The notes beneath the pieces were generated by a model. It searched no databases, was not told where the DNA came from, and was given only the letters and a program-made list of their open reading frames with translations. This document shows, piece by piece, positions 15,878 to 31,762 of a DNA stretch of 64,000 nt (position 1 is its first letter; each line of letters begins with the position of its first letter). Both the position numbers and the translations under genes were made by a program. The stretch lies in assembly GCF_007004135.1 (NCBI RefSeq), contig NZ_VJMG01000005.1, forward strand, positions 1-64,000. Reading direction: 5' to 3'. The stretch is from Affinirhizobium straminoryzae (GTDB lineage Bacteria > Pseudomonadota > Alphaproteobacteria > Rhizobiales > Rhizobiaceae).

Positions 15878-16092
15878 GGCATTCTCCTCCCATGTTCCGG
15901 AGTGGCTCCTCTCCGCCCCGGTCGTCCCTCTGATGACGAAATTTGTTTCCGTCAGATCCCTTGCTTGAGGCAAGGTTGTTATAATAAGTTGAGGCTAGGC
16001 GAGTTGATCTGAGCTGTCAATACGTCTCGCATCACTTGTTGAAGGAGGTCGACAGGCGGTGCTGCAACGGGAATGCCAGAGGGAGGATGAGC
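15878..16092. promoter_or_regulatory. Divergent control region of the polyol cluster
   Basis: 215 bp between the leftward kinase operon and the rightward glpD-like gene. Reading leftward there is TTGACA (16020-16015), 17 bp, then TAGCCT (15997-15992), a reasonable sigma-70 promoter. An inverted repeat CCTTGC-N5-GCAAGG (15959-15975) and the AT-rich segment around 15976-15990 lie just downstream of it, a good position for a repressor such as the GntR protein encoded at 17825. The binding assignment is inference. Confidence 0.4.
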
Positions 16093-17802
16093 ATGAGAAC
16101 ACGGGCGCAAGCGCTGGACGCACTGGAACGGGGAGAGAGCGGCGACATCCTGATCATCGGCGGCGGTATCAACGGGGTCGGCGTGTTTCGCGATCTCGCC
16201 GCGCAGGGGGTCGGGGCAACGCTTGTCGAGATGGGAGATTTCTGCAGCGGCACGTCGGCCGCCCCCTCGCGTCTCATCCATGGCGGCCTGCGCTATCTGG
16301 AGCAGGGCGAGTTCAAGCTGGTGCGGGAATCGGTGGAGGAGCGCGACCGGCTGCTGAAGAACGCGCCGCATCAGGTGCGGCCGATCCGCGTATGGGTGCC
16401 GGCCCTGTCCTGGGCGGGTGGCACGCTGCAGGCGGCCTTGCGCTTCCTGCGGCTGATGAAGGATCCCGGCCCCAAGGGCGCGCTGATCCTGAAGCTTGGC
16501 CTTACCATCTTCGACGGCTTCAGCATCCGCGATCGCTCGATGCCGCGCCACAGGCTGGTGCCAAGACGCCAGGCGTTTGCCAAAGTGCGCGGACTGGCAA
16601 ACGAGATCCGCATCGTCGCGGAATATTTCGACGCCCGCATCGACAGCCCGGAGCGGCTGACGCTTGAACTGGTGGACGATGCCGAGGCCGCCTGCCCGGA
16701 AAGCCTTGCCATTCCCTATCTGAAGCTCGTCGGTGTCGAGGGCGATACCGCACTTCTTCAGGATGTGCTGTCAGGCCGCATCATTCGCAAGCGCTGCCGC
16801 TTCATCATCAACTGCGCTGGCGCCTGGATTGACCATGTCGACCGGGATCTCGGCATCGGCGAAGGGCTGGTGGGCGGCACGCGCGGCTCGCATCTCGTAC
16901 TGAAGCGACCCGATCTCGCCGCTGATCTCGGTGATGTCATGCTGTATTTCGAGACACCCGATTTCCGCGCCTGCCTGATCTACCGACTCGATGCCGATCA
17001 CGTGCTGCTCGGCACCACCGACATTCGCACCGAACATGCCGGCGACAAGGAAACCTCCGAGGCGGAGATCGACTATCTGTTCGATGTGATCAGGACCGTG
17101 CTGCCCAAAGCCCGCCCCCGGCGGGAGGACATCGCCTTTGCCTATTCGGGCGTGCGCCCCCTGCCCCGCCAGGCCGCAGGCGCGGCTGGTTCGATCAGCC
17201 GCGACCACACGTTTCGCACCTTCGAGCCGACGGGCACGCGCACGGTGCCAGTGCTGACGCTGATCGGCGGCAAGTGGACCACCTACCGGGCCTGCGCCGA
17301 ACAGATCGTCGATCTCGTCCTGCCACGGCTTGGGCAAGACCGGAGGGTGACGACGGCCGACCTGCCGATCGGCGGCGGAACGCGCTTTCCGCGCGATCCC
17401 GCCGGTCTTTCGGCACTCGCCACGGAACTGATGCGGACAGGCGCGCTTGGTGCCGGGCGGGCCGAAAGACTGCTGAAGCGCTACGGCACGCGGGCGGCCC
17501 GCATGGCGGCCAGCCTGCGTGGCGAAACCCCGCTCCGTTCGGCCGCTTGCTATTCGCGGGAAGAGATCCTATGGATCGCGCAGAACGAGCGCGTCACCCG
17601 TCTCGACGACATGATCCTCCGGCGAACCCTTATGGCCTTCGAGGGCGTGGCCAGTGAAGCCTGCCTCATGGAGCTGGCGGATCTTCTGGCCCCCGCCCTG
17701 TCCTGGTCGCCGGAGCGATGCCAGGCCGAGGTGGACGCAACGCGCCTGCTGCTGGAAAACCGGCATCGCGCCCGTCGGCAGGTCAGCCTGGAGGACGCCT
17801 GA
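16093..17802 (+). CDS. glpD: FAD-dependent glycerol-3-phosphate dehydrogenase-like protein
   Basis: 569-residue GlpD/GlpA/EryB-family flavoprotein that oxidises a polyol phosphate at the membrane and passes electrons to quinone. The FAD-binding glycine motif IIGGGINGVG is at 21-30, followed by SRLIHGGLRYL, the GTTDI segment and SGVRPL; a C-terminal GlpD-type domain extends to the end. It is longer than E. coli GlpD (501 residues). ATG at 16093 fits AGGGAGG upstream better than ATG at 16087. It is divergent from the FGGY kinase operon and followed 22 bp later by a GntR regulator. With GlpK elsewhere it would be an ordinary glycerol enzyme; with this kinase an erythritol- or threitol-phosphate-type substrate is also possible. 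Confidence 0.82.
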   Translation: MRTRAQALDALERGESGDILIIGGGINGVGVFRDLAAQGVGATLVEMGDFCSGTSAAPSRLIHGGLRYLEQGEFKLVRESVEERDRLLKNAPHQVRPIRVWVPALSWAGGTLQAALRFLRLMKDPGPKGALILKLGLTIFDGFSIRDRSMPRHRLVPRRQAFAKVRGLANEIRIVAEYFDARIDSPERLTLELVDDAEAACPESLAIPYLKLVGVEGDTALLQDVLSGRIIRKRCRFIINCAGAWIDHVDRDLGIGEGLVGGTRGSHLVLKRPDLAADLGDVMLYFETPDFRACLIYRLDADHVLLGTTDIRTEHAGDKETSEAEIDYLFDVIRTVLPKARPRREDIAFAYSGVRPLPRQAAGAAGSISRDHTFRTFEPTGTRTVPVLTLIGGKWTTYRACAEQIVDLVLPRLGQDRRVTTADLPIGGGTRFPRDPAGLSALATELMRTGALGAGRAERLLKRYGTRAARMAASLRGETPLRSAACYSREEILWIAQNERVTRLDDMILRRTLMAFEGVASEACLMELADLLAPALSWSPERCQAEVDATRLLLENRHRARRQVSLEDA

Positions 17803-17824
17803 TCGCCAAACAAGGGGTACGCCC

Positions 17825-18595
17825 GTGTCCGACCCGTCCGTCGAAGATCCCGTCGTTCACGACCGCGCCCCCAAAGTACCGCTCTGGCTGCAGCTGAAGA
17901 CCGCCATTGCCGACATGATCGTCAAGGGCGGCATGCGCCCGGACGACAAGCTGCCGAGCGAAACGGAACTCTGCAACCAGTTCGGCGTCTCGCGCATCGT
18001 GGTGCGCCAGGCGATGAGCCGTCTGGTGACGGAAGGGCTGGTCTATCGCCACCAGGGCCGGGGCGCCTTTGTGGCCCAACAGAGCGAGGACAGCGATTTC
18101 GTCGGTCGCATTATCGGCTTTTCCGGCGATATCGAGCTGCGCAACCATACCGTCAGCCGTTTCATCCTGACGGCCGACATCCGCGACCCCGATCCCCGGG
18201 CCGCCAAGGCGCTGGGCCTTGGCCCCGGCGAGCGGGTCGTCTTCCTGAGGCGTACGATGAGCGTCGATGGCGTGCCGCGCATTCTGGTGGAAAGCTCGCT
18301 GGTGGAAAGCCGCGTGCCCGGCCTGCTGCATCATCCGCTGGAAAACCGCTCGCTCTATGCGATGCTGCTCGAACATTATGGCATCCAGTTCGAGGGCGCC
18401 GAACGCTGGATCGAGGCAGCCAGCGCCAGCAAGGAAGAAGCGGAACACCTGAAGATCAGCAAGGGAACGCCACTCATCAAGATCGAGTCGCGCTCCAGCG
18501 ATCGTACCGGTCGCCATATCGAATATTTCTCCGCCCTCTACCGCACGGACAGCGCCCGCCTGCACTTCACCATCCGGCCGGAACAGGGGCGCTGA
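17825..18595 (+). CDS. GntR-family regulator with UTRA domain (HutC subfamily)
   Basis: 256 residues. The N-terminal winged HTH (about 15-80) shows PLWLQLKTAIADMI, LPSETELCNQFGVSRI and VTEGLVYRHQGRGAFV, typical of GntR. The C-terminal half is a UTRA ligand-binding fold. Translation probably starts at GTG 17825 (AAGGGG upstream); the frame is open further into glpD but in a non-native sense. Co-transcribed with the glpD-like gene. Glycerol operons are usually controlled by DeoR-type GlpR, so a UTRA regulator binding a sugar phosphate points to another inducer. Probable repressor of both divergent arms of the cluster. Confidence 0.85.
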   Translation: MSDPSVEDPVVHDRAPKVPLWLQLKTAIADMIVKGGMRPDDKLPSETELCNQFGVSRIVVRQAMSRLVTEGLVYRHQGRGAFVAQQSEDSDFVGRIIGFSGDIELRNHTVSRFILTADIRDPDPRAAKALGLGPGERVVFLRRTMSVDGVPRILVESSLVESRVPGLLHHPLENRSLYAMLLEHYGIQFEGAERWIEAASASKEEAEHLKISKGTPLIKIESRSSDRTGRHIEYFSALYRTDSARLHFTIRPEQGR

Positions 18596-18661: not shown

Positions 18662-20200
18662 TCAGCCGAAGGCGATATCGCCGATGACGCGCACGCGCAC
18701 GCGCCGCGCGCCGCCCGGCAGATAGGCGATCGGGATATCCTCGATCTCCAGCGTTTTCAGGCTGTCCACCGCCGCACCGGAGGCAACCGCGGCATTGCGG
18801 GCGCCGGTTTCGGCCGCCGCCAGCGCCGCGTCGCGGCTCATGCCGGAAAACACCTGATCGACCTCGCCCGAGACCTGCGCCATGGCAGCGCCCAGTGCGT
18901 TGGCGACGCCGGCATTCTCCACCCGCACCACTTCCGAGGCACCCGGCACCTTGTCCGGGATCAGGAAGGCGCCGCCGCCGACGGCGATCAGCGGAACATC
19001 CTCGGCAGAGGTCTTCATCCGATCGAAATTGTCGGCCACCATCTCGCTGATCCTTGCGAGCGTCGCCCGCACGAGACCCGCGTCGAGCCCTTTCACCCGG
19101 TCCCGGTCGCCCATCTCGACAATGCCGGCGGCGACCGCGATATCGGAGGTGGTGAGCGTCGAGCCGCCAAACACCTTTGCTTCGGTGAGGATGCGATAGC
19201 CGACGGAGCGCGGGCCGATCGCGCCGTTTTCCGGGTTGATGATGGTGCCGCCGCCAAGCGCGATCGGCAGCAGATCCGGCATGCGGAACAGCGTGCGCAC
19301 GCCGCCGATATGGACGATGTTGTTCGCCTCGCGCGGGAAGCCGCCGATGAGGCAGCCGATATCGGAGGTGGTGCCGCCGACATCCACCACCATGGCATTC
19401 TCAAGCCCGGTGAGGAAGGCGGCGCCGCGCATGGAATTGGTCGGGCCGGAGGCAAAGCTGTGCACCGGATTGGCCGCCGCGACATCCGCAAGCGCCACCG
19501 TGCCGTCGTTCTGCGTGAGATAGAAGGGGGCGGTCACGCCGATCTCCGACAGCGCATCGGCAAAGGCCTGCACCGTCGTCTTGCCGAGCGATTGCAGCGC
19601 GGCATTCAGGATCGCGACGTTTTCCCGCTCCAGAAGGCCGATGCGCCCGAGCGTGTGGGAAAGCGTGATCTTCGCATCCGGAATGACGGAGCGGACGATT
19701 TCTGCGGCCCGCACCTCGCATTCGGTGGTGAGCGGCGAGAAGGTGGCGGAGATCGCAATCGAGGTGATGCCGGCATCGCGGATGCGCATTGCGGCATCGC
19801 GGATTTCATCCGGGTTCATCGGCACCAGCGGGCTGCCGTCATATTCATGCCCGCCATGCACCATGACGATCATCGGATCGACGGCGTTGTAGAGGTCGCG
19901 CGGCCAGTCGCACATCGGTGGCAGCGAGCGGCCGGTCGGCAGCGCCACGCGGATTGCCGCCACCCGTTCCAGACGGGCGCGCTCCACCACCGCATTGGTG
20001 AAATGCGTGGTGCCGATCATCACCGCATCAACGGCGATACCGGCCGCGGCGGGCGCGTTGATCACATGCGAGAGGGCAGCCTTTACGCCCGAAAGCACGT
20101 CCTGGGTGGTCGGAACCTTGATGGCGGCCAAAATGCGCTCGCCATCGACAAGAACAGCGTCCGTGTTCGTGCCGCCAACGTCAATACCGATGCGTTTCAT
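18662..20200 (-). CDS. Hydantoinase/oxoprolinase-like ATPase (HyuA type), copy 1
   Basis: 512 residues with the N-terminal and central domains of the ATP-dependent hydantoinase/5-oxoprolinase family (acetate-kinase-like ATPase fold). Phosphate motif GIDVGGTNTD at 5-14, MIGTTHFTNA at 61-70, QNDG at 230-233 and the second phosphate motif VVDVGGTTSD at 271-280. It is shorter than HyuA proteins (about 680-700 residues) and no HyuB gene is nearby; its partner is the DUF917 protein encoded immediately upstream, whose stop overlaps this start (ATGA). Last gene of the nine-gene operon. Family members open cyclic amides or carboxylate ketones using ATP; the substrate here is unknown. Confidence 0.85.
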   Translation of the reverse strand: MKRIGIDVGGTNTDAVLVDGERILAAIKVPTTQDVLSGVKAALSHVINAPAAAGIAVDAVMIGTTHFTNAVVERARLERVAAIRVALPTGRSLPPMCDWPRDLYNAVDPMIVMVHGGHEYDGSPLVPMNPDEIRDAAMRIRDAGITSIAISATFSPLTTECEVRAAEIVRSVIPDAKITLSHTLGRIGLLERENVAILNAALQSLGKTTVQAFADALSEIGVTAPFYLTQNDGTVALADVAAANPVHSFASGPTNSMRGAAFLTGLENAMVVDVGGTTSDIGCLIGGFPREANNIVHIGGVRTLFRMPDLLPIALGGGTIINPENGAIGPRSVGYRILTEAKVFGGSTLTTSDIAVAAGIVEMGDRDRVKGLDAGLVRATLARISEMVADNFDRMKTSAEDVPLIAVGGGAFLIPDKVPGASEVVRVENAGVANALGAAMAQVSGEVDQVFSGMSRDAALAAAETGARNAAVASGAAVDSLKTLEIEDIPIAYLPGGARRVRVRVIGDIAFG

Positions 20201-21273
20201 GGAAATACCGATCTGAAGTCAATGTCATAGCCGAAGGCGCGGGGGCCGACGGCGGCAATGCCGGCAGGCGTGGTGAGAAGGGCCGGCGCCGGCAGCGCCA
20301 CCACGGTGACGCGCTGGCCGTAGCGGACGGATTCCGTGCCGATCGCGCTGCCCGAGATGGTGTCGAGAAGGCAGAGCAGATCCGGCGTCATCGCAACCGG
20401 TTCGCCATCGCGGAAGGCAACCGCCCATTCGTTCTGGAAGGCAAGTTCCAGCCGTGATCCTCGATCGCCATCGATCCCCTCGATGATCGTGCGGCCGCGC
20501 AGGAAGCCACCGGTCGTTTCGCGGGCAACATCGATCACCTTGCCGCGGAACAGCTGCTTGCCGCCCTCGTGGTCAAGGATGGCATCCACCGGGTCGGCAT
20601 GCCTGCGGCGGGCATCAAGCACCGCCTTGCCGAGTTCGACGGCCTTGGTGACCGTGTCGTGAATGCCCCATTCCTTCACTTCGCGGCCGGTGCGGGGCGC
20701 CTTGCAGGTGGCAGCCGTCGAGCCGACTTCGGTGCAGACCTTGCGTGAGATGCGCTCCATCCATTTCCACGAGGCGGCCCGCGTCACGATCACCTCGTTG
20801 TCGCGCACGTCGACCAGCGACAACGGGAACATCGGCAGGTTGCCGATCGCAAACGAGGTCATCTGCGCTTCCGGATAGGCGCGGCCCATGGCATCGGCAT
20901 TGACGACGGGACGATCGAGAACGGCAGCGGCAAGGAAGGAGGAGAGCGCATTCGAACCGCCGATCTCCACGCTCATGATGGCGCGGAAACGCTTGCCGAT
21001 ATAATCCTCCATCACCTCGACGGCGCGGGCCAGATGCACGGGATCGCCGAGCCGCTCCTGGCCGACCAGCGGCGCACCCATCTTGGAGACGACGGCGACC
21101 ATGTCGTCATCGTCGAGCGCCATCGGGTCCATCAGGTCGACGCGGGCGCCCTCGGCATAGAGCCGCCGGAGGTTCAGCGTCGAGATATAGGGGTCGCCGC
21201 CGCCGCCGGTGCCGAGAATCCAGGCGCCGATGGCCAGCGGTTCGATGTGTTCTTCTGCGAATTCTTCAAGCAT
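20197..21273 (-). CDS. DUF917 family protein, copy 1
   Basis: 358 residues. The N-terminus carries the glycine-rich DUF917 hallmark GTGGGGDPY (21-29), and the rest shares the family blocks found again in copy 2 (EIGGSNALS, DAMGRAYPE, and RYGQRVTVVALP near the end). DUF917 has no established activity but is constantly encoded with, or fused to, hydantoinase-like ATPases, so it is presumably the partner subunit or second step. ATG at 21273 (GAAGG upstream) is preferred over an in-frame start at 21294. Stop overlaps the next gene by 4 nt; a strong hairpin separates it from the binding-protein gene upstream. Confidence 0.85.
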   Translation of the reverse strand: MLEEFAEEHIEPLAIGAWILGTGGGGDPYISTLNLRRLYAEGARVDLMDPMALDDDDMVAVVSKMGAPLVGQERLGDPVHLARAVEVMEDYIGKRFRAIMSVEIGGSNALSSFLAAAVLDRPVVNADAMGRAYPEAQMTSFAIGNLPMFPLSLVDVRDNEVIVTRAASWKWMERISRKVCTEVGSTAATCKAPRTGREVKEWGIHDTVTKAVELGKAVLDARRRHADPVDAILDHEGGKQLFRGKVIDVARETTGGFLRGRTIIEGIDGDRGSRLELAFQNEWAVAFRDGEPVAMTPDLLCLLDTISGSAIGTESVRYGQRVTVVALPAPALLTTPAGIAAVGPRAFGYDIDFRSVFP

Positions 21274-21305
21274 GTCCGACCTTCGGCAGGGCAAGGAGGG
21301 GTATG

Positions 21306-21327
21306 CCGGCCCCGCAGGCGGGGCCGG
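21306..21327 (-). terminator. Perfect hairpin behind the binding-protein gene
   Basis: CCGGCCCCG (21306-21314) and CGGGGCCGG (21319-21327) form a perfect 9-bp G+C stem with a 4-nt loop, 23 nt after the stop of the binding-protein gene and inside the operon. No T-run follows. It is best read as a 3' mRNA stabiliser or partial terminator that raises binding-protein expression over the two downstream genes. Confidence 0.6.
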
Positions 21328-21350
21328 TTGTCATCATGATGCGGGAAGGA

Positions 21351-22943
21351 TCACTTCGCCTTGCAATCCCAGGTGAAGTTGGCAAAGTTCAGGTCCCAGC
21401 TCTGCATGGGAATGAACTGGTAGCCCTGCAGGCACTTGTTGGCGGCATAGCGCCGGTTCGGTGCCACGGCCCAGACATCGGGCTGCAGGTCGGCGATCTT
21501 CGCCTGCAGGTCCTTGTAGACGGCGTTCTGCTCGGCAACGTCGGTCGTTCCGCGCGTCTTGTCGATCAGCGCGTCGATCTCCGGGTTCTGCAGCCATTCC
21601 ATCGACATCCAGGTGCCGGAGGCCTTGGAATGGTACTGGTTGTAGAACATCGAGTCCGGCGAGGGATAGGTCGGCGAGATGTTGACCTGGGTGGAAGCGG
21701 GCGTCGTGTCCGGCTTGGAGGAAAGCTCGACGATACGGTTCCACGGCTCCGGCTTGATGTCGAGCGTGATCCCGATCTGCTCCAGATTCGCCTGCAGCAA
21801 AAGCGCTACTTCCGCCTCGAAGGCGAGCGAGGCGACATAGCTGTTCACCAGCGTGATCTTCTGGCCCGCATATTTCGACTTCGCCAGTTCCTCCTTCGCC
21901 TTTTCGAGATCGAAGGTGCCGGGCTTGATGTCGCCGTTATGGGCATCCTTGAAGGCGGTCGAGAGCGGGCCCTGCATGTCGGTGCCGGGATAGATGATCT
22001 CCTGGATCGTCTTGTAGTCCGTGGCATAGGCGATGGCGCGGCGCACATGCACGTCGTCGGTCGGATAGACCTTGGTGTTCAGCTTGATGACGAAGCCGCC
22101 GGAGGTGCGGGTCTGGATCAGCTTGTAATTCGCCATCTTGCCGATGGCCTCGTAGGTATCGTTGCCGAGGCCGTGGGAGGAAAGACCCAATTCGCCCTTC
22201 TCCGCCAGCGCCTTGACGGTGGCATCGTCGCTGGTCTGCACGAAGCGGACTTCGTCGACCGGCGTGCCCTTGGTCCAGCCGAGGAAGTAATCGGCATTGC
22301 GGGCGATCACCATGTCGGCGGAGCGGTTGTAGCTGACGAGCTTGTAGGGGCCGGAGCCGGCGGAATGTTCGCCGACATAGGCCTCGCCCCACTTGTCGTC
22401 GGCCTTGGCATTGGCGGTGATCAGCGTCTTGTTGAGCGCCATCATCAGCGGCGTTGCCGCAAGGAATGGCGAAAACTGCCGGTCGATCTTCAGAACGAGC
22501 GTCTTCTCGTCCGGAGCCGTGACGTTTTCCGGCTTCAGTACGCCCACGATGAGGTTGGACGGGCCCTTGTTGATGCCGAGCAGGCGCTGGATGGACCACA
22601 CCATATCGGCGGCCTTGACCGGCGTTCCATCCTGGAACTTCGCATCGTCGCGCAGGTGGAAGGTATAGGTCAGGCCATCGCCCGAGACATCCCAGGACTT
22701 TGCCAGATGCGGCACGATCTCGCCGGAGGGGCTGACGGTGGTCAGCCCGTCATACATGTTCACCACGGCCATATAGCCGGTATAGTCGGTGACCTTGGCG
22801 GGATCGAGCGAGCTGAAGATCTGCTGCACATTGACGACGGTCGAGATCTTGTCGGCGGCAGAGGCTGCCGGAAGACCTGCGGAGAGCGTGAGCGCCGTGC
22901 CGAGCGCAAGTGCGGCGAGACGCCTGTAAGCCATGGATTTCAT
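21351..22943 (-). CDS. ABC substrate-binding protein, family 5 (peptide/nickel type)
   Basis: 530-residue periplasmic binding protein with signal peptide (MKSMAYRR, hydrophobic stretch, ASA near residue 29). The SBP family 5 (DppA/OppA-like) blocks are visible: LAKSWDVSGDGLTYTFHLRD and FQDGTPVKAADMVWSI. Cluster-5 proteins bind di/oligopeptides, opines, nickel chelates or other amides, so the ligand is open. It lies between two copies of the hydantoinase/DUF917 pair, whereas its permeases and ATPase are upstream in the same operon. SD AGAGGAG lies about ten bases before ATG 22943; a second Met three codons later is possible. The hairpin at 21306-21327 follows the gene. Confidence 0.88.
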   Translation of the reverse strand: MKSMAYRRLAALALGTALTLSAGLPAASAADKISTVVNVQQIFSSLDPAKVTDYTGYMAVVNMYDGLTTVSPSGEIVPHLAKSWDVSGDGLTYTFHLRDDAKFQDGTPVKAADMVWSIQRLLGINKGPSNLIVGVLKPENVTAPDEKTLVLKIDRQFSPFLAATPLMMALNKTLITANAKADDKWGEAYVGEHSAGSGPYKLVSYNRSADMVIARNADYFLGWTKGTPVDEVRFVQTSDDATVKALAEKGELGLSSHGLGNDTYEAIGKMANYKLIQTRTSGGFVIKLNTKVYPTDDVHVRRAIAYATDYKTIQEIIYPGTDMQGPLSTAFKDAHNGDIKPGTFDLEKAKEELAKSKYAGQKITLVNSYVASLAFEAEVALLLQANLEQIGITLDIKPEPWNRIVELSSKPDTTPASTQVNISPTYPSPDSMFYNQYHSKASGTWMSMEWLQNPEIDALIDKTRGTTDVAEQNAVYKDLQAKIADLQPDVWAVAPNRRYAANKCLQGYQFIPMQSWDLNFANFTWDCKAK

Positions 22944-23014
22944 GCTGGAAGTTCTCCTCTTTTATGCGGCGGGACCTGTCCCGCCTGTTGTTTGCGGATG
23001 GGACGCGAAAAGGA

Positions 23015-24136
23015 TCAGGCCGCCTTTGGCAGCGGCGAGAAGGCGATGTCCGGATAGCCGAAGGCCGAGGGCCCCACGACCTCGAGCGCGGCTGCCGAGC
23101 GCAGCAGGTCGTGGCAGGGGATCGCAATCACCGCGACGCGCTGGCCGTAGCGCAGCATTTCGGTGGTGATCGGATAGCCGGTATCCACATCGAGCAGCAC
23201 GATCAGATCGGGCACCGTCACCTCGACCACGCCATTGCGGCGGAAGATCAGGAATTCGTTCTGGATCGCGACGCTTGCGGTTTCGCCGGTCCAGCCGTCA
23301 AAGCCTGCAAGCTCCAGATCGCCGACCGCAAAGCCGCCGCGCAGATGGCGCTTCAGATCGGTGATCTTGCCGTTGAAGATGCGGCGCCCGCCTTCAAGGT
23401 CGCAGACGGCCGCGATCGGATCCTCCTGCTGGCGGCGGGCGCGGATGACCGCTTCGCCAAGCGCGATCGCCTTGGTATAGCTGCGCGGAATGGCGAACTG
23501 GTGGACGAAGTGCGCCTGCATGGGCGCCGTCGCCAGCATCGCCCCGCCGCCCTGGGCGACGACACAGGCGCGCGCCATGCGCTCGTGCCAGACTTCCGAG
23601 ACCGCATGGCTGAAGATCACCGCATTGCCATGCAGGTCGCACATCACGGACGGCGTGGAGCTGTGGCCGTAGATCGAGAAGGTGGTCATCTGCATTTCCG
23701 GGAAGGCGCGGCCCATGCCGTCGCAATCGAGGATGGGCAGGCCGCCGAGTGCTGCCGTCACCAGCGGGCTCATGGAATTGGCGCCGCCAATCTCCTCGCA
23801 GACGATGGCATCGACCGGCGTGCGGATCAGTTCCTCCATGGCGGTGAGGCAGCGCAGGCCCTCGCGGCCCTCGCGGATGCGCTCGACGCCGACGACCGGT
23901 GCGCCGATGCCGCCGATCGACATGCACAGCGCATCCGCCTCGATGGCATCGGTGGCGAGGATCTTCATCTCGTAGCCGGCCTTCAGCGCCTCGAGCGCCA
24001 GAAGCTTGCCCTGGTAGGGATTGCCGCCGCCGCCGGTGCCCAGAATGCCGGCGCCGATCTCCAGCGCTTCCAGGTCATCGCGCGTCAGGGTGCGCAGGGC
24101 GGCCTCGTCATATTTGCGTTTGCGGCTCTCAGCCAT
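23015..24136 (-). CDS. DUF917 family protein, copy 2
   Basis: 373 residues, a divergent paralogue of copy 1. The hallmark GTGGGGNPY is at 33-41, followed by EIGGANSMS, DGMGRAFPEMQ and near the end RYGQRVAVIAIP. A longer charged N-terminus (MAESRKRKYDE) distinguishes it from copy 1. ATG at 24136 (GGGAG upstream) overlaps the end of hydantoinase-like copy 2 by 8 nt, so the two are translationally coupled. In copy 1 the order is the reverse (DUF917 first). Function unknown; a fixed pairing with the ATPase suggests a two-component enzyme. Confidence 0.85.
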   Translation of the reverse strand: MAESRKRKYDEAALRTLTRDDLEALEIGAGILGTGGGGNPYQGKLLALEALKAGYEMKILATDAIEADALCMSIGGIGAPVVGVERIREGREGLRCLTAMEELIRTPVDAIVCEEIGGANSMSPLVTAALGGLPILDCDGMGRAFPEMQMTTFSIYGHSSTPSVMCDLHGNAVIFSHAVSEVWHERMARACVVAQGGGAMLATAPMQAHFVHQFAIPRSYTKAIALGEAVIRARRQQEDPIAAVCDLEGGRRIFNGKITDLKRHLRGGFAVGDLELAGFDGWTGETASVAIQNEFLIFRRNGVVEVTVPDLIVLLDVDTGYPITTEMLRYGQRVAVIAIPCHDLLRSAAALEVVGPSAFGYPDIAFSPLPKAA

Positions 24137-25685
24137 GATAGGCTCCCATCTCTCCGACGACCTTGACGTGAATGCGGGTGGCGTTGCCCGGCAGATAGGC
24201 GAGCGGCGTATCCTCCCGCTCGATGACTTCGAGCGTTTCGGGGATCGCGCCGGCGGCGATCGCCTTGTCGCGCGCCTCGGCCTCCGCCTCGGCAAGCGCA
24301 GCCTCGCGCGTCTTGCCGTCGATCAGGGAAAACACACGGTCCGTCTCGCCGCTGATCTGGGCGATCGCAGCACCCACCGCGTTTGCGACCGCGAAGTTTT
24401 CGGGACGTAAGACCTCCAACTCGCCGATCCGGTCCGGCATCAGGATCGAGCCGCCGCCGACGGCGATGACCGGCACCGGGGTAGACGAAATGCGGCTGCG
24501 CTCCACGCAGGCTTCCAGCATGGCATTGATGCGGGCGACGGCCGCCTCGACCAGGGCCGGGGCGAGGCTGTCGACCAGAGCCTTGTCACCGACATCCGCC
24601 TTGCCCGCCGCAACGGCGATATCGGTTGCCGTCAGCGTAGAGCCGCCGAAGCACAAGGCCTCGCGGCGCACGCGGTAGCCGACGGATTTCGGGCCGATCG
24701 AAATTCCCTTCTCGCCGTTGACGACCAGCGAACCGCCGCCGAGGCCGATGGAGAAAACGTCGGGCATGCGGAAATTGGTCTTCACGCCACCGATATCGAC
24801 GGTGGTCGAGGCCTGCCGCGGAAAACCGTGCGAGAGCGAGCCGACATCGGTGGTGGTGCCGCCGACATCCACCACCACGGCGTCTTTCAGACCGGTGAGG
24901 AAGGCCGCACCGCGCATGGAATTCGTCGGGCCGGAGGCGAAGGTCAGCACCGGGAAGGCGCGCACCACATCGGCCGCCATCAGCGTGCCGTCGTTCTGGG
25001 TGATATAGAAGGGGCAGGTGAGACCCGCCTGCACCAGCGCCTTCTGGAAGGCGGCAACCGTGCGGTCGGCAAGCGAGAGCAGGCTGGCATTCATGATGGC
25101 CGCACTTTCGCGCGCCAGAAGGCCGTGACGGCCGATATCCTTCGACATCACCACCGGCACGCCGGGGCAGTGGCGGTAGAGAAGCTCGCGGGTGCGCAGT
25201 TCCATGGCATCGTTGATGCCGCTGAAGACGCAGGTGACGGCGGCCGCTTTGAGGCCCTTGGCCCGGATCTCGCCGGCAATGCGGACGATCTCGTCTTCAT
25301 CGAGCGGCGAGAGGATGCGGCCGTCGAATTCATATCCGCCCTTCACCTGATAGCCGTGATTGCCGACGATCTCGCGGATGTCATCGGGCCAGTCGACCAT
25401 CGGCGGCAGGCCGGCGCCGGATGGCAGGCCGAGCCGGATGGCAGCGACTTCATCCATGTGGCGGCGCTCGATCACCGCATTGGTGAAATGCGTGGTGCCG
25501 ATCATCACGGCGTCGATCGCCTTGCGGTCGATGCCGGAAGCCGCGATCACGTTTTCCAGAGCCTCGATGACGCCCGTCGTCACGTCTTCCGTGGTCGAGG
25601 CCTTCACCCCGGCCAGAACCGTCTTGTCCTGCAATATGACGGCATCCGTATTGGTGCCGCCGACGTCGATCCCTACACGATACAC
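24129..25685 (-). CDS. Hydantoinase/oxoprolinase-like ATPase (HyuA type), copy 2
   Basis: 518 residues, paralogue of the protein at 18662-20200 with the same blocks: GIDVGGTNTDA near the start, MIGTTHFTNA, QNDGT and VVDVGGTTTD. Starts at GTG 25685 with GAGGAG upstream. It follows the fused ATPase gene by 17 bp and overlaps the DUF917 copy 2 gene. The ends differ more between the two copies than the nucleotide-binding blocks do, as expected if they act on different intermediates or form a heteromer. Cytoplasmic; probably hydrolyses a cyclic amide or related ring at the expense of ATP. Confidence 0.85.
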   Translation of the reverse strand: MYRVGIDVGGTNTDAVILQDKTVLAGVKASTTEDVTTGVIEALENVIAASGIDRKAIDAVMIGTTHFTNAVIERRHMDEVAAIRLGLPSGAGLPPMVDWPDDIREIVGNHGYQVKGGYEFDGRILSPLDEDEIVRIAGEIRAKGLKAAAVTCVFSGINDAMELRTRELLYRHCPGVPVVMSKDIGRHGLLARESAAIMNASLLSLADRTVAAFQKALVQAGLTCPFYITQNDGTLMAADVVRAFPVLTFASGPTNSMRGAAFLTGLKDAVVVDVGGTTTDVGSLSHGFPRQASTTVDIGGVKTNFRMPDVFSIGLGGGSLVVNGEKGISIGPKSVGYRVRREALCFGGSTLTATDIAVAAGKADVGDKALVDSLAPALVEAAVARINAMLEACVERSRISSTPVPVIAVGGGSILMPDRIGELEVLRPENFAVANAVGAAIAQISGETDRVFSLIDGKTREAALAEAEAEARDKAIAAGAIPETLEVIEREDTPLAYLPGNATRIHVKVVGEMGAYHG

Positions 25686-25702
25686 GTGAGGCTCCTCTTG
25701 CG

Positions 25703-27349
25703 TCAGTCTGTTGATTTGACGAGGAAGCGCATGCGTTCCTCTTCGGTCACGACGGGCTTTTCGCGCTCTTCCACATCGGAAACGACGGGAATGGCCGCAA
25801 TCAGCGCCCGGGTGTAGGGATGGGAGGGGGCGGCGAACACCGCAGGCGTCGCGCCCTCCTCGACGATCTCGCCGCGCAGCATGACGGCGATGCGCGAGCA
25901 GAAATTGCGCATCAGCGACAGGTCGTGGCTGATCATCAGATAGGTGAGCCCCAGTTCCTCGCGCAGCTGCACCAGAAGCTCGATCACCGTCTTCTGCACC
26001 GAGACGTCAAGGGCTGCGGTCGGTTCGTCGAGGATCAGGATTTTGGGCTCGGCCGCCAGCGCGCGGGCAATCGCCACGCGCTGCTTCTGGCCGCCGGAGA
26101 GTTCGTGCGGATACTTGGCGAGATAGGATTGCGGCAGGCGCACCAGGCCCATCAGCTCGATCAGACGCGCTTCCCGCGCATCCCCCTGCATGCCGATCGA
26201 TTTCAGCGGCAGGGTCAGCGTCTGGCGGACGGTCCGCTTCGGATTGAGCGAGGTGCCGGGGTTCTGGTAGACGATCTGGGTCAGGCGGCGACCTTTTGCC
26301 GGCGCCGGCGCGTCGATCATCAGTTCGCCGGAGGTCGGCCGCAGAAGCCCCATGATCATCCGCGCGACCGTCGTCTTGCCCGAGCCGGATTCGCCGGCGA
26401 GCCCGAAAATCTCGCCTTCACGCAGCGTCAGGTTGACGTCGCGCACGGCGTGATAGCCGTTGCGGCGACCATAGATCTTGTTGAGGTTGCTGATGCGGAC
26501 GATCGGCGCGCGGTCGCTCTGGGCCATGTCGATGACGCGGGGTCCGTAGAGGGCCGGCACGGCATCGAGCAGCGCGCGGGTATAGTCCTTTGCCGGTTCG
26601 CTGAGGATCGTTCGGCACGGGCCTGTCTCGACGATATCGCCGTGATGCATCACCACCACGCGGTCGGAGACCTTGCGGACCACGCCGAGATTGTGGGTGA
26701 TCATCAGCAGCGCCATGTTTTCCTCGCTGACCAGGCTGTTGATCAGGTTGAGGATCTCGTCCTGCGTGGTGACATCGAGCGCGGTTCCCGGTTCATCGGC
26801 GATCAGAAGTTTCGGCTGGTGCAGCAAGGCAAGGCCGATCAGCACGCGCTGGCGCATGCCGCCCGAGAGCTCGAACGGATAGGCATTCATCACCCGCTCG
26901 GCATCGGCAAGCTGCACCCGGCGCAGCACGGCGGCAATGCGGCTGCGGCGTTCGGCGCGCGACGTCGCGATGCCGTTGCGACGGTCGGCAAAGCGCATCA
27001 CGTCGTCGAGATGGGTGCCGATGCGGAACACCGGATTGAAGGAGGAGAGCGGGTCCTGCATGATCAGCGAGAAGGCCGTGCCCTTCAGCGCCTCGCGCCC
27101 GGCGCGCGGCAGGTCCAGCACATTGCGGCCCTCGACAAGGATCTGGCCGGTGCGGATGGTCGCATTGCGGGGCAGCGTGCCGATGATCGCCTTGGCGGTG
27201 ACCGACTTGCCGGAGCCCGTCTCGCCGATCAGGGCGACGCGTTCGCCGGCGGCAACCGCAAAGCTGACATCGCGCAGCACCTGGCGCGTGCGGCCATAGG
27301 AGGTGAAGTCGACGGACAGGTTTTCGACGCTGAGAAGAGTGTCGCGCAT
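25703..27349 (-). CDS. Fused double ABC ATPase, Dpp/Opp type (DppD-DppF fusion)
   Basis: 548 residues containing two complete ATPase domains. First: Walker A GETGSGKS near residue 40, signature LSGGMRQR, Walker B LLIADEP. Second: GESGSGKT near 320, LSGGQKQR, LILDEP, each with a switch His (ITHN, ISHD). Such fusions are common in rhizobial peptide-family importers. ATG at 27349 is preferred to the tandem ATG at 27352 because GGAGGG is then correctly spaced; the frame is open far upstream but only through the antisense of the permease. Energises the two permeases encoded directly upstream. Confidence 0.92.
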   Translation of the reverse strand: MRDTLLSVENLSVDFTSYGRTRQVLRDVSFAVAAGERVALIGETGSGKSVTAKAIIGTLPRNATIRTGQILVEGRNVLDLPRAGREALKGTAFSLIMQDPLSSFNPVFRIGTHLDDVMRFADRRNGIATSRAERRSRIAAVLRRVQLADAERVMNAYPFELSGGMRQRVLIGLALLHQPKLLIADEPGTALDVTTQDEILNLINSLVSEENMALLMITHNLGVVRKVSDRVVVMHHGDIVETGPCRTILSEPAKDYTRALLDAVPALYGPRVIDMAQSDRAPIVRISNLNKIYGRRNGYHAVRDVNLTLREGEIFGLAGESGSGKTTVARMIMGLLRPTSGELMIDAPAPAKGRRLTQIVYQNPGTSLNPKRTVRQTLTLPLKSIGMQGDAREARLIELMGLVRLPQSYLAKYPHELSGGQKQRVAIARALAAEPKILILDEPTAALDVSVQKTVIELLVQLREELGLTYLMISHDLSLMRNFCSRIAVMLRGEIVEEGATPAVFAAPSHPYTRALIAAIPVVSDVEEREKPVVTEEERMRFLVKSTD

Positions 27350-27351
27350 CA

Positions 27352-28233
27352 TCAGCCCTCCACGTCGAACATGTCGCGCAGACCGTCGCCCAGCAGGTTG
27401 AAGCCGAGGGTGACGTAAAGCACTGCAGCCCCCGGGCAGAGAACCTCCCACCAGAAATCCGGCATGAACTGGCGTCCGTCCGCCACCATCGAGCCGAGAT
27501 CCGGCGTCGGCGGCTTCACGCCGAAGCCGAGGAAGCTCAGCGTCGCGCCGAACAGGATGACGAAGGCGGCATCGAGCGTCGTCTTGACAGAAATGACGGC
27601 GACGCAATTGGGCAGGATTTCGCGGAAGAGGATGTGGAAGGGGCCGGCGCCGGCCAGCCGCGCCGCCTCGATATAGTCTTCCGAGGCGATCGACTTCGAC
27701 ACCGAATAGATGAGCCGCGCATGCCAGGTCCACCAGAGCAGCGTGATGGCAATCATCGCATTCATCAGCGTCGGTTCGAGCAGGTTCGAGACGGCAAGCG
27801 CCATCACGAGCGGCGGCATGGCGAGCATTACATTGGTGAGCCCGCTGATCAGCCGCTCCGTCCAGCCGCCGACATAGCCCGCAATCAGGCCGAGCACGGT
27901 GCCGACCGGCACGGAAATGCCGAGCACGCCGAGAACGAGCAGCAGCGAGACCCGAAGGCCGAACACTGTGCGCGAGAAGATGTCGCGGCCGGCCTTGTCG
28001 GTGCCGAACCAGTGGCCGGCATCCGGCGGCAGATGGCGCGCCTTGAAATCGACGATGCTGCCGACATGCTTCGGATAGGGCGTGAGCCACGGCGCAAAGA
28101 CCGCGAGAATGACGACCGACAGCAGGATCAGCGTGCCGATGACGGCAGCCGGATTGCGGCTGAAGCGGTACCACATCATGTAACCGGCGCTCAGGCCACG
28201 GTCGGCCGGATCCAACATCTTGATGTCGGCCAT
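27352..28233 (-). CDS. ABC permease, DppC/OppC type
   Basis: 293-residue inner-membrane permease with an N-terminal helix followed by the OppC-type domain. Blocks HWFGTDKAGRDIFSRTVFG and the coupling loop EAARLAGAG followed by FREILPN are characteristic. Its start overlaps the preceding permease stop by one base (TGATG) with GGAGG upstream, and its stop touches the ATPase start, so the three genes are tightly coupled. Confidence 0.92.
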   Translation of the reverse strand: MADIKMLDPADRGLSAGYMMWYRFSRNPAAVIGTLILLSVVILAVFAPWLTPYPKHVGSIVDFKARHLPPDAGHWFGTDKAGRDIFSRTVFGLRVSLLLVLGVLGISVPVGTVLGLIAGYVGGWTERLISGLTNVMLAMPPLVMALAVSNLLEPTLMNAMIAITLLWWTWHARLIYSVSKSIASEDYIEAARLAGAGPFHILFREILPNCVAVISVKTTLDAAFVILFGATLSFLGFGVKPPTPDLGSMVADGRQFMPDFWWEVLCPGAAVLYVTLGFNLLGDGLRDMFDVEG

Positions 28234-29261
28234 CAGAGTGCCTCCTTGCGGCGCATGCGCGGATCGATGATGGAAATCAGGACATCGACGACAAGGTTCG
28301 CGACGATGAAGAACAGGCCCGCCACCAGCACCACGGCGGTGACCGCGTTGAGATCCTTCTGCAGGATGGCGTTGAGGCCGTAGGAGGCGAACCCGCCCCA
28401 GGCGAAGATCATTTCGATGACGAAGGCATTGCCGATCAGCGAGGCGAATTCGAGCCCCATGATGGTGAGCGGCGCGATGGAGGAGAGCTTCAGCAGATAG
28501 CGGAAGATGATGACGCGCTCGGGCACGCCGAAGCTCTGCAGTGTCAGCACATGGTCCTTGCGCTGGTTCTCGATCATCGAGGAACGGGTGATGCGGGTGA
28601 TCTGGCCGATGCCGGCCATCGACAGCGCAAAGGCGGGCAGCGCGATGTGCTGGAGCGCGCTGCCGACGACATCGAGCCGCCCGGCAAGAAGGCCGTCGAG
28701 GATCAGGAAGCCGGTCGGGCCGCCCTGCCAGCCAAGCCCATGATCAAGGCGCCCGATGATCGGCCATCCTCCCGGCACCCGCGCCGCCAGCAACTGGAGC
28801 GTGATGGCGAAGAGGAAGCTCGGGATCGTCACCCCCGTCAGCGACAGGATACGGCCCCCATGGTCCAGCGCGCGGTCGCGGTAATGGGCGGTGACAACGC
28901 CAAGCGGAATGGCGACGAGGAACATGAAGACGACGGAGACGAGAACGAGTTCCACCGTCGCCGGCACCGTCTGGGCAAGGTCCGTTGTCACGGGACGCTG
29001 CGAGACGAGCGAGGTGCCGAGATCGCCGTGCAGCGCCTTGGTGATATAAGCGAGATACTGCACGACAACAGGCTGATCGAGCCCCATCTGCAGGCGCAGC
29101 GCCTGCACCTGTTCCGGCGTCGCCGCCGGTCCGAGCGCCATGCGGGCCGGATCGCCAGGCACGACGCGGGCAAGTGTGAAAATCATCAGGGACAGCACGA
29201 CCATCACCAGCAGGAAGGTGCCGAGCCGGGCCAGAATGGCTGTCAACGGGTGATGCCGCAT
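28233..29261 (-). CDS. ABC permease, DppB/OppB type
   Basis: 342-residue inner-membrane permease. The N-terminal block VVPGDPARMALGPAAT is the DppB signature, and the coupling loop lies near VLTLQSFGVPE followed by IFRYLLKLS. It is the first gene of the nine-gene leftward operon (permeases, ATPase, hydantoinase-like 2, DUF917 2, binding protein, DUF917 1, hydantoinase-like 1). The promoter must lie in the 119 bp shared with the divergent LuxR gene. The ribosome-binding site AAGGGG is rather far from ATG 29261. Confidence 0.9.
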   Translation of the reverse strand: MRHHPLTAILARLGTFLLVMVVLSLMIFTLARVVPGDPARMALGPAATPEQVQALRLQMGLDQPVVVQYLAYITKALHGDLGTSLVSQRPVTTDLAQTVPATVELVLVSVVFMFLVAIPLGVVTAHYRDRALDHGGRILSLTGVTIPSFLFAITLQLLAARVPGGWPIIGRLDHGLGWQGGPTGFLILDGLLAGRLDVVGSALQHIALPAFALSMAGIGQITRITRSSMIENQRKDHVLTLQSFGVPERVIIFRYLLKLSSIAPLTIMGLEFASLIGNAFVIEMIFAWGGFASYGLNAILQKDLNAVTAVVLVAGLFFIVANLVVDVLISIIDPRMRRKEAL

Positions 29262-29338
29262 CGTCGTGAAAGATCCCCTTGCCAGGAAACATGCGCCGGC
29301 AATCTCTCTTGTCGCCTTCCCACGAACAAGCGCGGCCC

Positions 29339-29376
29339 GGTATAGTTTTTTACTCCAAAGGTATAGGTTTTGGAGT
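29339..29376. promoter_or_regulatory. Direct repeat plus dyad ahead of the LuxR/MalT-like gene
   Basis: GGTATAG occurs at 29339-29345 and again at 29360-29366, exactly 21 bp (two helical turns) apart, within nearly identical 12-mers. Interleaved is a perfect inverted repeat ACTCCAAA (29352-29359) / TTTGGAGT (29369-29376). The right arm contains the GGAG ribosome-binding site of the regulator gene, so the dyad could be an operator or, in RNA, a hairpin that hides translation initiation. It lies between divergent genes, so it may control the nine-gene operon too. Confidence 0.5.
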
Positions 29377-29380
29377 TCGG

Positions 29381-31762
29381 ATGCCCTATCCCCTTACCAT
29401 GGACATGCTTCTCGACAGGCCCCGCCTTCGCCGTCTGATGACAGACGGCAATCACCGCGTCCTCCTTCTCCAGGCAGGGGCAGGCGCGGGAAAAAGCGTA
29501 CTGCTGCGGCAGATGGCAGAGGATGCCGGGGCACGCGTCTGCACCGCGCTCCATCCGCAGCAGGCGGATCTCGAAGGCGGCATGCTGTTCTGGGACCTGC
29601 CGCGCAAGGCCCGGTCGCTCAGGCTTTCCGACGCCGTCATCGACAACGCCGAGCGGATCGTCATCGCCTGCCGACCGCAACAGAAGGTCACGGGCCTTGC
29701 CCGCGCCAAGCTGCATGGTGGCTGCCGTGTCCTTCTGGCCGAAGACCTGTCCTTCAACGACGAGGACCTGATCACGCTGCCGCCGCAGACGCAGCGCGCG
29801 GTACTCGAAACCTATGCCGGCTGGCCGGCCTTCCTGCGGCTTGCCCTTGGCGACGGAGAGGATGATGGCAGCCTCGTTGATTACTGCCGGGAAGCGCTGT
29901 TTGACCATCTGACGCCGGGCGACATGGCGGCCCTGTCTTTGTGGCTGAAGGCACCCGACCAGCCGGTGCCGGCGATTGCTGCCACCCTCATGCCACCGCG
30001 TCTCCTTGCGGAACCGGATCGCTACCCAGTGCTGGTCGAGACCCTGCGGCGGGCAAGCGGGGAGAGCCTTGCGGCCTATGTCAGCCCGACCGCCCTCAAA
30101 GATATCGCGTCCACGCTCGAACAGTCCGGACAGGTGCTTGCCGCCATGAACCTGCTGCTGGACCATGGTCTGGAGGCACAGGCCGCCGCCATCCTGGAGC
30201 GGGCGGACGGGCGCGACCTGATCTATCGCAGCAGTCTGGCCGAGTTCCAGGATATCGTCCTGCGCTTCTCGCACGAGAGCGTGGCGGAGAACGAGACGAT
30301 CCTGTTTGCCATCTGCCGGGCGTTGATGAAGCAGGGCGAGTTGCACCGCGTGCGCCATCTTCTGTCGAAACATCTGGGTCTCGACTACCTCGACCCCATG
30401 AAGGTGCTGGTCAAGGGCTCGCGCTTCTCGTTTGCCGCGCGAACCTTCCGCCTCAACCTGATGATTTCCGAGGACCTGACGCCGAATGACGCGATGATCG
30501 AGCGGCTGGCCGAATTCATGGCGGATTATCCGCTGGGCGAGCATGGGAAATGGGCGGCCTATTACAATGCGCTGCTGGAATTCGAGATCCGTCGCCGCAA
30601 TTTTCGCGAGGCCGAGGCCGCCGCCGCGCGGGCGCTGATCTACCTTAAGAAGATGGGGGGCCAGCCGCTGCTCGAATTCTTCATCCATCTGCACCAGACC
30701 GTGCTGCGACTGATGAGCGGCGATGCACTTCTGGCCCGCAAGGCCGCACAGGATGCCCGCGTACGCCTTGAACAGGTGCCGCATCCGGCGGACGCTGAGT
30801 TTCGCATGCTGCGCCTGGCGGAGGCCTGCCTCGATTACGAAGTGGGCCGCCAGCGGGCCCTGCTGCAATTCGTGCAAAACGAGTTTGAGGAGTTCGCCGC
30901 CGCCGAAATCTGGCCGAGCCTGATGCAGTTCGCCCTGCATTATGCCGCGCAGGCGCTGATCGACCATTTTCCGATGGGCGTGCGGCCGGGCTTTCTCGAC
31001 GGGCTGTGGATCCACCTGTCGGATGGCCTGCAGTTCCATGCGATGATGGAGATCCGCACGGCGATCGCCTACCAGAATGCCGGGCGCTGGCGCGAGGCGG
31101 CGGCCACCCTGTCCGCCATCCGCATGCCGATGGGCAAGCACTGGATCGACAGCGCGGTGGAGGACCTCACGCGCTTCAGCCGTCGTGACGAGATCGCCTA
31201 TGTGATGGCCTGGTTTCGCGAGGCGGTCCATCTGTGGACGCCCCGCCCCTATCTCGCCCGGCAGCTGGAGGCGCTGATCGCCAATCCGAAGGTGACCCAT
31301 CGCGAGCGCGTGGCGCTGGAGATCTGGCTGGGCTACACAGCCCACCAGCGCCGCGAGACGGCCGCCGCCCGCAGTCACCTGCTGTCGGCGCTCGAAAGTG
31401 CCCACCGGCTCGGTTGCCACGGCGTTCTGTCCGAAGAGCGCCTGTTTCTCTCGCCGCTTCTGGAAAGCCGCACGCTCCGCGCCTTCGTGGAAACCTCCGT
31501 CGGCGTGCGCAGCGCGCTTGCGATCTTCACGTCCTCGCTCAACTCGCCGCATGCCCGCGCGCTGAAGGGCGGACTATCGCAGCGTGAAGCCCAGATGCTG
31601 CAGCTGGCAGCCGGCGGCCTCTCCAACAAACGCATCGCCGCAACGCTCAACATTTCCGAGGTCACCGTGAAATACCACCTCGGCAATCTGTACCGGAAAC
31701 TCGGCTGCAACCGTCGCGCCGAAGCGCTGCGCGCCGCAATGGCGCTCGGCTGGATCAGCTGA
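29381..31762 (+). CDS. MalT-like LuxR-family regulator (STAND ATPase)
   Basis: 793 residues: an N-terminal P-loop domain (AGAGAGKS at 32-39), a long helical, TPR-like middle and a C-terminal LuxR-type HTH (about 732-790: LSQREAQMLQLAAGG, SNKRIAATLNIS, VTVKYHLGNLYRKL). Large LuxR proteins of this kind are ATP- and ligand-dependent activators such as MalT. The region between P-loop and the next conserved strand (RIVIACRP, 92-99) is only about 50 residues, so the ATPase core looks shortened and no classical Walker B is evident. ATG at 29381 follows TTGGAG. Divergent from the importer/hydantoinase operon and its likely activator. Confidence 0.85.
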   Translation: MPYPLTMDMLLDRPRLRRLMTDGNHRVLLLQAGAGAGKSVLLRQMAEDAGARVCTALHPQQADLEGGMLFWDLPRKARSLRLSDAVIDNAERIVIACRPQQKVTGLARAKLHGGCRVLLAEDLSFNDEDLITLPPQTQRAVLETYAGWPAFLRLALGDGEDDGSLVDYCREALFDHLTPGDMAALSLWLKAPDQPVPAIAATLMPPRLLAEPDRYPVLVETLRRASGESLAAYVSPTALKDIASTLEQSGQVLAAMNLLLDHGLEAQAAAILERADGRDLIYRSSLAEFQDIVLRFSHESVAENETILFAICRALMKQGELHRVRHLLSKHLGLDYLDPMKVLVKGSRFSFAARTFRLNLMISEDLTPNDAMIERLAEFMADYPLGEHGKWAAYYNALLEFEIRRRNFREAEAAAARALIYLKKMGGQPLLEFFIHLHQTVLRLMSGDALLARKAAQDARVRLEQVPHPADAEFRMLRLAEACLDYEVGRQRALLQFVQNEFEEFAAAEIWPSLMQFALHYAAQALIDHFPMGVRPGFLDGLWIHLSDGLQFHAMMEIRTAIAYQNAGRWREAAATLSAIRMPMGKHWIDSAVEDLTRFSRRDEIAYVMAWFREAVHLWTPRPYLARQLEALIANPKVTHRERVALEIWLGYTAHQRRETAAARSHLLSALESAHRLGCHGVLSEERLFLSPLLESRTLRAFVETSVGVRSALAIFTSSLNSPHARALKGGLSQREAQMLQLAAGGLSNKRIAATLNISEVTVKYHLGNLYRKLGCNRRAEALRAAMALGWIS

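Follow-up and report, generated by a model that had tools for sequence, protein, structure and literature searches.

A regulator gene and a divergent transporter operon

The window analysed here, a stretch of 64 kb in full, contains a gene for a LuxR-family (GerE domain) regulator of 787 aa (29399..31762, + strand) that stands back to back with an operon on the opposite strand (18662..29261, − strand). The operon was delimited from its open reading frames, and Pfam matches define the five genes nearest the regulator: oppB, oppC, a fused oppDF-like ATPase gene, a hydantoinase/oxoprolinase-like gene and an S-Me-THD-like gene. The last three, which encode a solute-binding-like protein, a second S-Me-THD-like protein and a second hydantoinase-like protein, are named from sequence only. 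Hydantoinase/oxoprolinase-like and S-Me-THD (DUF917)-like genes, two of each, thus seem to flank the gene for the solute-binding-like protein. NCBIfam has two thiohydantoin-desulfurase models, and the first S-Me-THD protein falls short of the cut-off of each; the literature on hydantoinase/DUF917 proteins with LuxR regulators and on thiohydantoin offered nothing usable for the transported compound. The far end of the operon is faced by a GntR-like regulator gene (17654-18595, + strand), itself adjoined by a glycerol-3-phosphate-dehydrogenase-like gene (16036-17802, + strand); both of these names were likewise read from the sequence itself.

The regulator carries a C-terminal GerE helix-turn-helix (PF00196, 68.2 bits against a cut-off of 23.5) and, near its N-terminus, a Walker A motif, AGAGAGK[S/T], in which A26, G29, A30, G31 and K32 are invariant in 28 aligned rows. 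A structure model of the protein (mean pLDDT 83.1) has a predicted strand at residues 109-112, a possible place for a Walker B, and its best Foldseek match is a STAND-TPR protein with an E value of 2.2e-05 but a TM score of 0.25. MalT chains appear at ranks 8 and 49, and a match to MalT domain III reaches a Z of 11.7, a value inside the range common for helical repeats: this and other helical-repeat matches were not counted as proof of family. The possibility that the protein is a MalT ortholog was rejected, the profile NF003420 scoring 53.2 bits against 537 and matching residues 731-789 only, that is, the helix-turn-helix. We class the regulator as MalT-like in its working and as a putative member of the STAND/LAL family.

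Between the two transcription units lie two boxes, box 1 (GGTATAGTTTTT, 29339..29350, + strand) and box 2 (GGTATAGGTTTT, 29360..29371, + strand), which form a direct repeat at a distance of 21 bp and share the extended unit GGTATAG[T/G]TTTT. The preliminary description of this DNA had singled out the GGTATAG pair as standing two helical turns apart, and it does so exactly, at 29339-29345 and 29360-29366. It had also pointed to a perfect 8-bp dyad (29352..29376, + strand), which is present as described and has a loop of 9 bases: ACTCCAAA (29352-29359) is complementary to TTTGGAGT (29369-29376), and the dyad includes a GGAG at 29372-29375, with an ATG at 29381.

Within the window alone neither the repeat pair nor the dyad is clearly above chance. 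Exact 7-mers repeated at 21 bp number 38, against 3-18 in ten shuffles, and the excess is also found at other multiples of three (32 at 18 bp, 32 at 33 bp); inverted repeats with perfect 8-bp arms, at loop lengths of 3-20, number 64, against 42-57 in five Markov-shuffled copies. Because both features are unremarkable in a single sequence, comparison with relatives was used to decide between them and chance.

Conservation of the boxes among relatives

Within the genus, orthologs of the regulator (E up to 1e-20) occur in 13 of 57 genomes, the window genome counted. A pattern-based scan of named genomes, which need not be complete, returned 59 loci, 58 of which hold orthologs at 52-88% identity over the best segment; the other (L104, Nitrospina), whose match lies in the helix-turn-helix only, was dropped. 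The records come from Neorhizobium, Rhizobium, Agrobacterium, Shinella, Xaviernesmea, Paenochrobactrum and Rhizobiales, and from Salipiger, Alloyangia, Pseudooceanicola and Acidimangrovimonas, the last four of which we take to be Rhodobacteraceae. The nearest relative (88%) is the contig of N. galegae DS1499. A homolog at 25% identity was seen in genome G050. The 58 loci, together with the window and one further genome (L034), provide 60 distinct upstream rows. At all 58 loci the regulator gene is adjoined, divergently, by the five opp-operon genes that are nearest to it in the window, a few of the gene matches being partial (e.g., L094, L095 and L098).

Conservation in relatives had been proposed as a check, and here the repeats hold up well: with a relaxed motif both boxes are found in 60 of 60 rows (upstream of every one of the 58 orthologous regulator genes, in the window and in the one further genome), and their geometry relative to both putative promoters is fixed. 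The spacing is 21 bp in 59 rows and 20 bp in one, L098 from Shinella UYSO24. With a strict motif and a spacing of exactly 21 bp, 51 of the 58 loci were matched, the seven misses being six Rhodobacteraceae loci with variant boxes and L098. In a profile of 53 rows, which omits these same seven, the mean is 1.89 bits per column for box 1 and 1.68 for box 2 (12 bp each), and the flanks are far less well kept: 0.45 bits in the 9-bp linker and 0.29 bits across 29372-29386. Because the rows were anchored on the motif, part of the conservation at positions 1-7 of either box is built in, although no locus was lost thereby; the T run and the promoter elements lie outside the anchoring motif. At position 8 of the unit (29346 and 29367) every one of the 53 profiled rows has T in the first box and G in the second.

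The Shinella UYSO24 locus (L098/L044) is peculiar in other respects: its matches to the regulator, to oppB and to the hydantoinase gene are likewise broken or partial. Because of this the missing base between its boxes may be a sequencing or assembly error, and the 20-bp spacing possibly reflects such errors or decay of the locus.

The window genome has a single copy of the operator, no second one being found at up to three mismatches (control 0), and among the 57 genomes of the genus a copy with up to two mismatches is present in 12, all of them among the 13 regulator-bearing genomes (control 0). The remaining one of the 13 (G075) has its boxes at a 20-bp spacing. Across the class, 385 evenly sampled genomes, few of them close relatives, were scanned and gave the operator's own site and two matches with two mismatches (G101 and G156); these two may be due to chance, because the control pattern matched in about 15 genomes.

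One natural variant may bear on recognition. In Rhizobium sp. CSW-27 a G replaces T at the same place in both boxes. The recognition helix of the regulator could be read in 50 of 58 rows, the eight that yielded none by pattern being L092, which is truncated, L095 and L098, whose frames are altered, and five Rhodobacteraceae with a different motif. At one place in this helix the 50 rows have Gly in 48, Ser in one and Lys in one, and the Lys belongs to CSW-27 alone. The coincidence of the Lys with the T-to-G change is suggestive, and it is a single event. Lys192 of NarL contacts DNA, and we assume that the Gly/Lys place corresponds to it; the literature on NarL contact residues did not settle to which NarL residue this place corresponds. 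CSW-27 would on this evidence be a natural case of changed specificity.

Putative promoters on either side of the boxes

On the opp side a candidate −35 element, TTGTTC (29324..29329, − strand), has its TTG 9 bp from box 1 in all 60 rows. It is followed, after a 17-bp spacer, by the −10-like hexamer GAGATT (29301..29306, − strand), the last T of which (A29301 on the + strand) is retained in 59 of 60 rows. From these elements we infer that transcription of opp starts near 29294.

On the regulator side a putative promoter is marked by the −10-like hexamer TATCCC (29387..29392, + strand), whose TA is conserved in its distance from box 2: counted from where box 2 begins, it lies at 27 bp in 51 of the 53 profiled rows and a single base closer in another. 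All 52 of these rows have an ATG 11-13 bp (mostly 12) after the T of the TA. The sole row with 21-bp spacing that lacks a regulator −10-like TA is L100, a locus of 8 kb in which the ATG stands 36 bp past the start of box 2. Shine-Dalgarno-like tetramers are found 5-16 bp upstream of the conserved ATG in 4 of 53 rows, and in L051, L053, L074 and L075 an in-frame stop codon directly precedes this ATG, so that no earlier start is possible there. It is ATG 29399, then, and not ATG 29381, that is conserved as the probable start of the regulator.

The TA-to-ATG spacing of 11-13 bp places the presumptive +1 on the A of ATG 29399, and the regulator mRNA would most likely be leaderless. In the promoter so defined box 2 would cover the −35 region, from −39 to −28. 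In Sinorhizobium meliloti 171 leaderless mRNAs, each starting at the first base of an AUG, have been mapped (PMC3616915); here such a layout is deduced from conservation. For agrobacteria, among them Rhizobium rhizogenes C16/80, transcription starts have also been mapped (PMC10469942). An RNA that begins at 29399 would contain neither the hairpin nor a Shine-Dalgarno sequence.

The Rhodobacteraceae differ in layout on this side. Of the six loci, five have the regulator ATG 14-15 bp after box 2 begins, and L102 has it at 12 bp; TATAGG of box 2 accordingly lies 6-7 bp before the ATG, the corresponding sequence in L102 being TATGGG at 4 bp. In five or six of these loci box 2 would thus form or cover the regulator −10. 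The opp-side TTG is in place in all six. With the TTG fixed and the regulator ATG shifted, the constraint would seem to fall on the opp promoter as the target, and autoregulation to vary by lineage.

A proposed two-box operator and its alternatives

We propose that the boxes are a dedicated two-box operator, of MalT style, for the adjacent STAND/LAL LuxR regulator, likely acting in opp activation and in control of the regulator's own gene, a reading to which we give a probability of about 0.72. Its parts differ in strength. The boxes are almost certainly an operator for some DNA-binding protein; with good confidence that protein can be taken to be the adjacent regulator; and opp activation is probably the main task. 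Two helix-turn-helix domains of a putatively oligomeric regulator would lie on the same face of the DNA, one on each of the head-to-tail boxes, and the bound regulator would serve both divergent promoters. Counted from a start near 29294, box 1 would extend from about −45 to −56 and box 2 from about −66 to −77 of the opp promoter, just upstream of its intact −35, while on the other side box 2 would lie over the −35 region of a leaderless promoter. A ligand would switch the regulator on, whereupon the opp/hydantoinase operon would be activated; the regulator gene would also come under control. A tandem activator site for the divergent operon had already been suggested in the preliminary description: the site is upheld as a conserved operator, and its role in activation is what we infer.

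The same description had coupled these repeats to a second level of control, in which a hairpin at 29352-29376 hides a translation start composed of the GGAG and ATG 29381. The window does offer a perfect 8-bp stem and a well-spaced GGAG and ATG, and in 9 of 60 rows, the window among them, a stem of at least eight uninterrupted pairs (G-U allowed) can form in the neighbourhood of box 2, as a raw count. At the homologous arms, however, all eight pairs are found in the window only, with seven in L101 and at most five in the other 58 rows; GGAG is present in 1 of 60 rows and ATG 29381 in 2 of 60, and the nearest named relative (L046, 88%) reads ATA at the place of this ATG. The window RNA folds with a z of −0.52. 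Eight of the 60 rows were folded, and two of them, L034 (z −3.15) and L089 (z −2.69), are more stable than most of their shuffles, but in structures that differ from this hairpin and from one another. The putative RNA start, moreover, lies beyond the stem. A transcription start downstream of 29352, together with an absence of protein binding to the repeats, had been named as grounds for abandoning the idea, and the first half of this pair is what the ATG 29399 layout (52 of 53 rows) points to. On arm pairing, folding and start-codon conservation we reject control by an RNA hairpin: the hairpin appears accidental to the window sequence and without a role, GGAG and ATG 29381 lose their standing as the regulator's ribosome-binding site and start, and of the combined transcriptional and translational control only the tandem-site part survives. 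The model as a whole is scarcely credible. Its translational component has been dropped, and the likely start codon of the regulator shifts to ATG 29399.

Two further alternatives accept the boxes and assign them differently. They could be bound by another protein, such as a GntR-like one, or be core promoter elements, with CTATACC serving as a −10 on the other strand; a GntR-like gene is indeed present at 17654-18595, and CTATACC resembles what we take to be an alphaproteobacterial −10. Against this, the operator occurs in the genus only together with the LuxR-type gene, and the repeats are direct, not inverted. Identical boxes 21 bp apart also make no −35/−10 pair, and separate −35 and −10 elements are conserved; CTATACC as core promoter was rejected on this spacing, and the alternative in either form is very improbable. 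It is less improbable, though still unlikely, that the regulator binds the same operator mainly to repress its own promoter, and perhaps opp, until a ligand releases it. The position of box 2 suits repression of the regulator gene: it covers the −35 region in Rhizobiaceae, and in the Rhodobacteraceae it would cover the −10 at five or six loci. Yet in every one of the 60 rows the opp −35 is left intact and the boxes are placed upstream of it, as is usual for activation, and MalT-type regulators are described as typically activators (PMC10427625, PMC6099782).

The proposed dedicated operator for the adjacent regulator, with opp as its likely main target, has parallels in known systems. For regulators of this kind a direct repeat of MalT boxes with one over the −35 region is a known layout (PMC7567727, PMC6099782), and asymmetric direct-repeat boxes with one at −35, counted from the putative start, are what the 53 profiled rows contain. 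MalT of the E. coli maltose regulon is of STAND type, as the regulator here would be, and like it has a C-terminal GerE-type helix-turn-helix, direct-repeat boxes and a box at −35 (PMC7567727, PMC6099782, PMC10427625). It differs in its box, GGGGA[T/G]GAGG as opposed to GGTATAG[T/G]TTTT, and in having a regulon of several promoters, whereas here one operator was found in the regulator's own genome at up to three mismatches. TpdR, the LAL regulator of the tetramethylpyrazine operon in Rhodococcus jostii TMP1, has 788 aa and, as here, a Walker A motif and a C-terminal helix-turn-helix, and its target promoter also contains direct repeats, of 15 bp and with another box sequence; it is, however, actinobacterial, and the operon that it serves is one for degradation, not a transporter operon on the divergent side (PMC6099782). 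In Bacillus subtilis ComA a GerE-type helix-turn-helix similarly acts on direct repeats in promoter activation, but ComA is a response regulator and its repeats are hexamers with a 5-nt spacer (11-bp period) beside inverted repeats (PMC4797271).

No published description of this operator was recognised in the literature searched, in which few subscription journals were represented. The boxes would define a specific and testable operator for large LuxR-type regulators of some sixty genomes, linked to a transporter of peptide type and its accompanying hydantoinase-like enzymes. The two promoter layouts provide material for studying the action of a single bound regulator on two divergent promoters. 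A wider reading, which we offer tentatively and at less than even odds, is that a single two-box operator of a STAND-type regulator serves two promoters, with the opp one unchanged in place from family to family and the leaderless regulator promoter moved relative to box 2 (its −35 in Rhizobiaceae, its −10 in Rhodobacteraceae), changing the sign or strength of autoregulation, with the Gly-to-Lys change in CSW-27 exposing a specificity code. The six Rhodobacteraceae loci have one further peculiarity: position 8 of the unit is G in both of their boxes.
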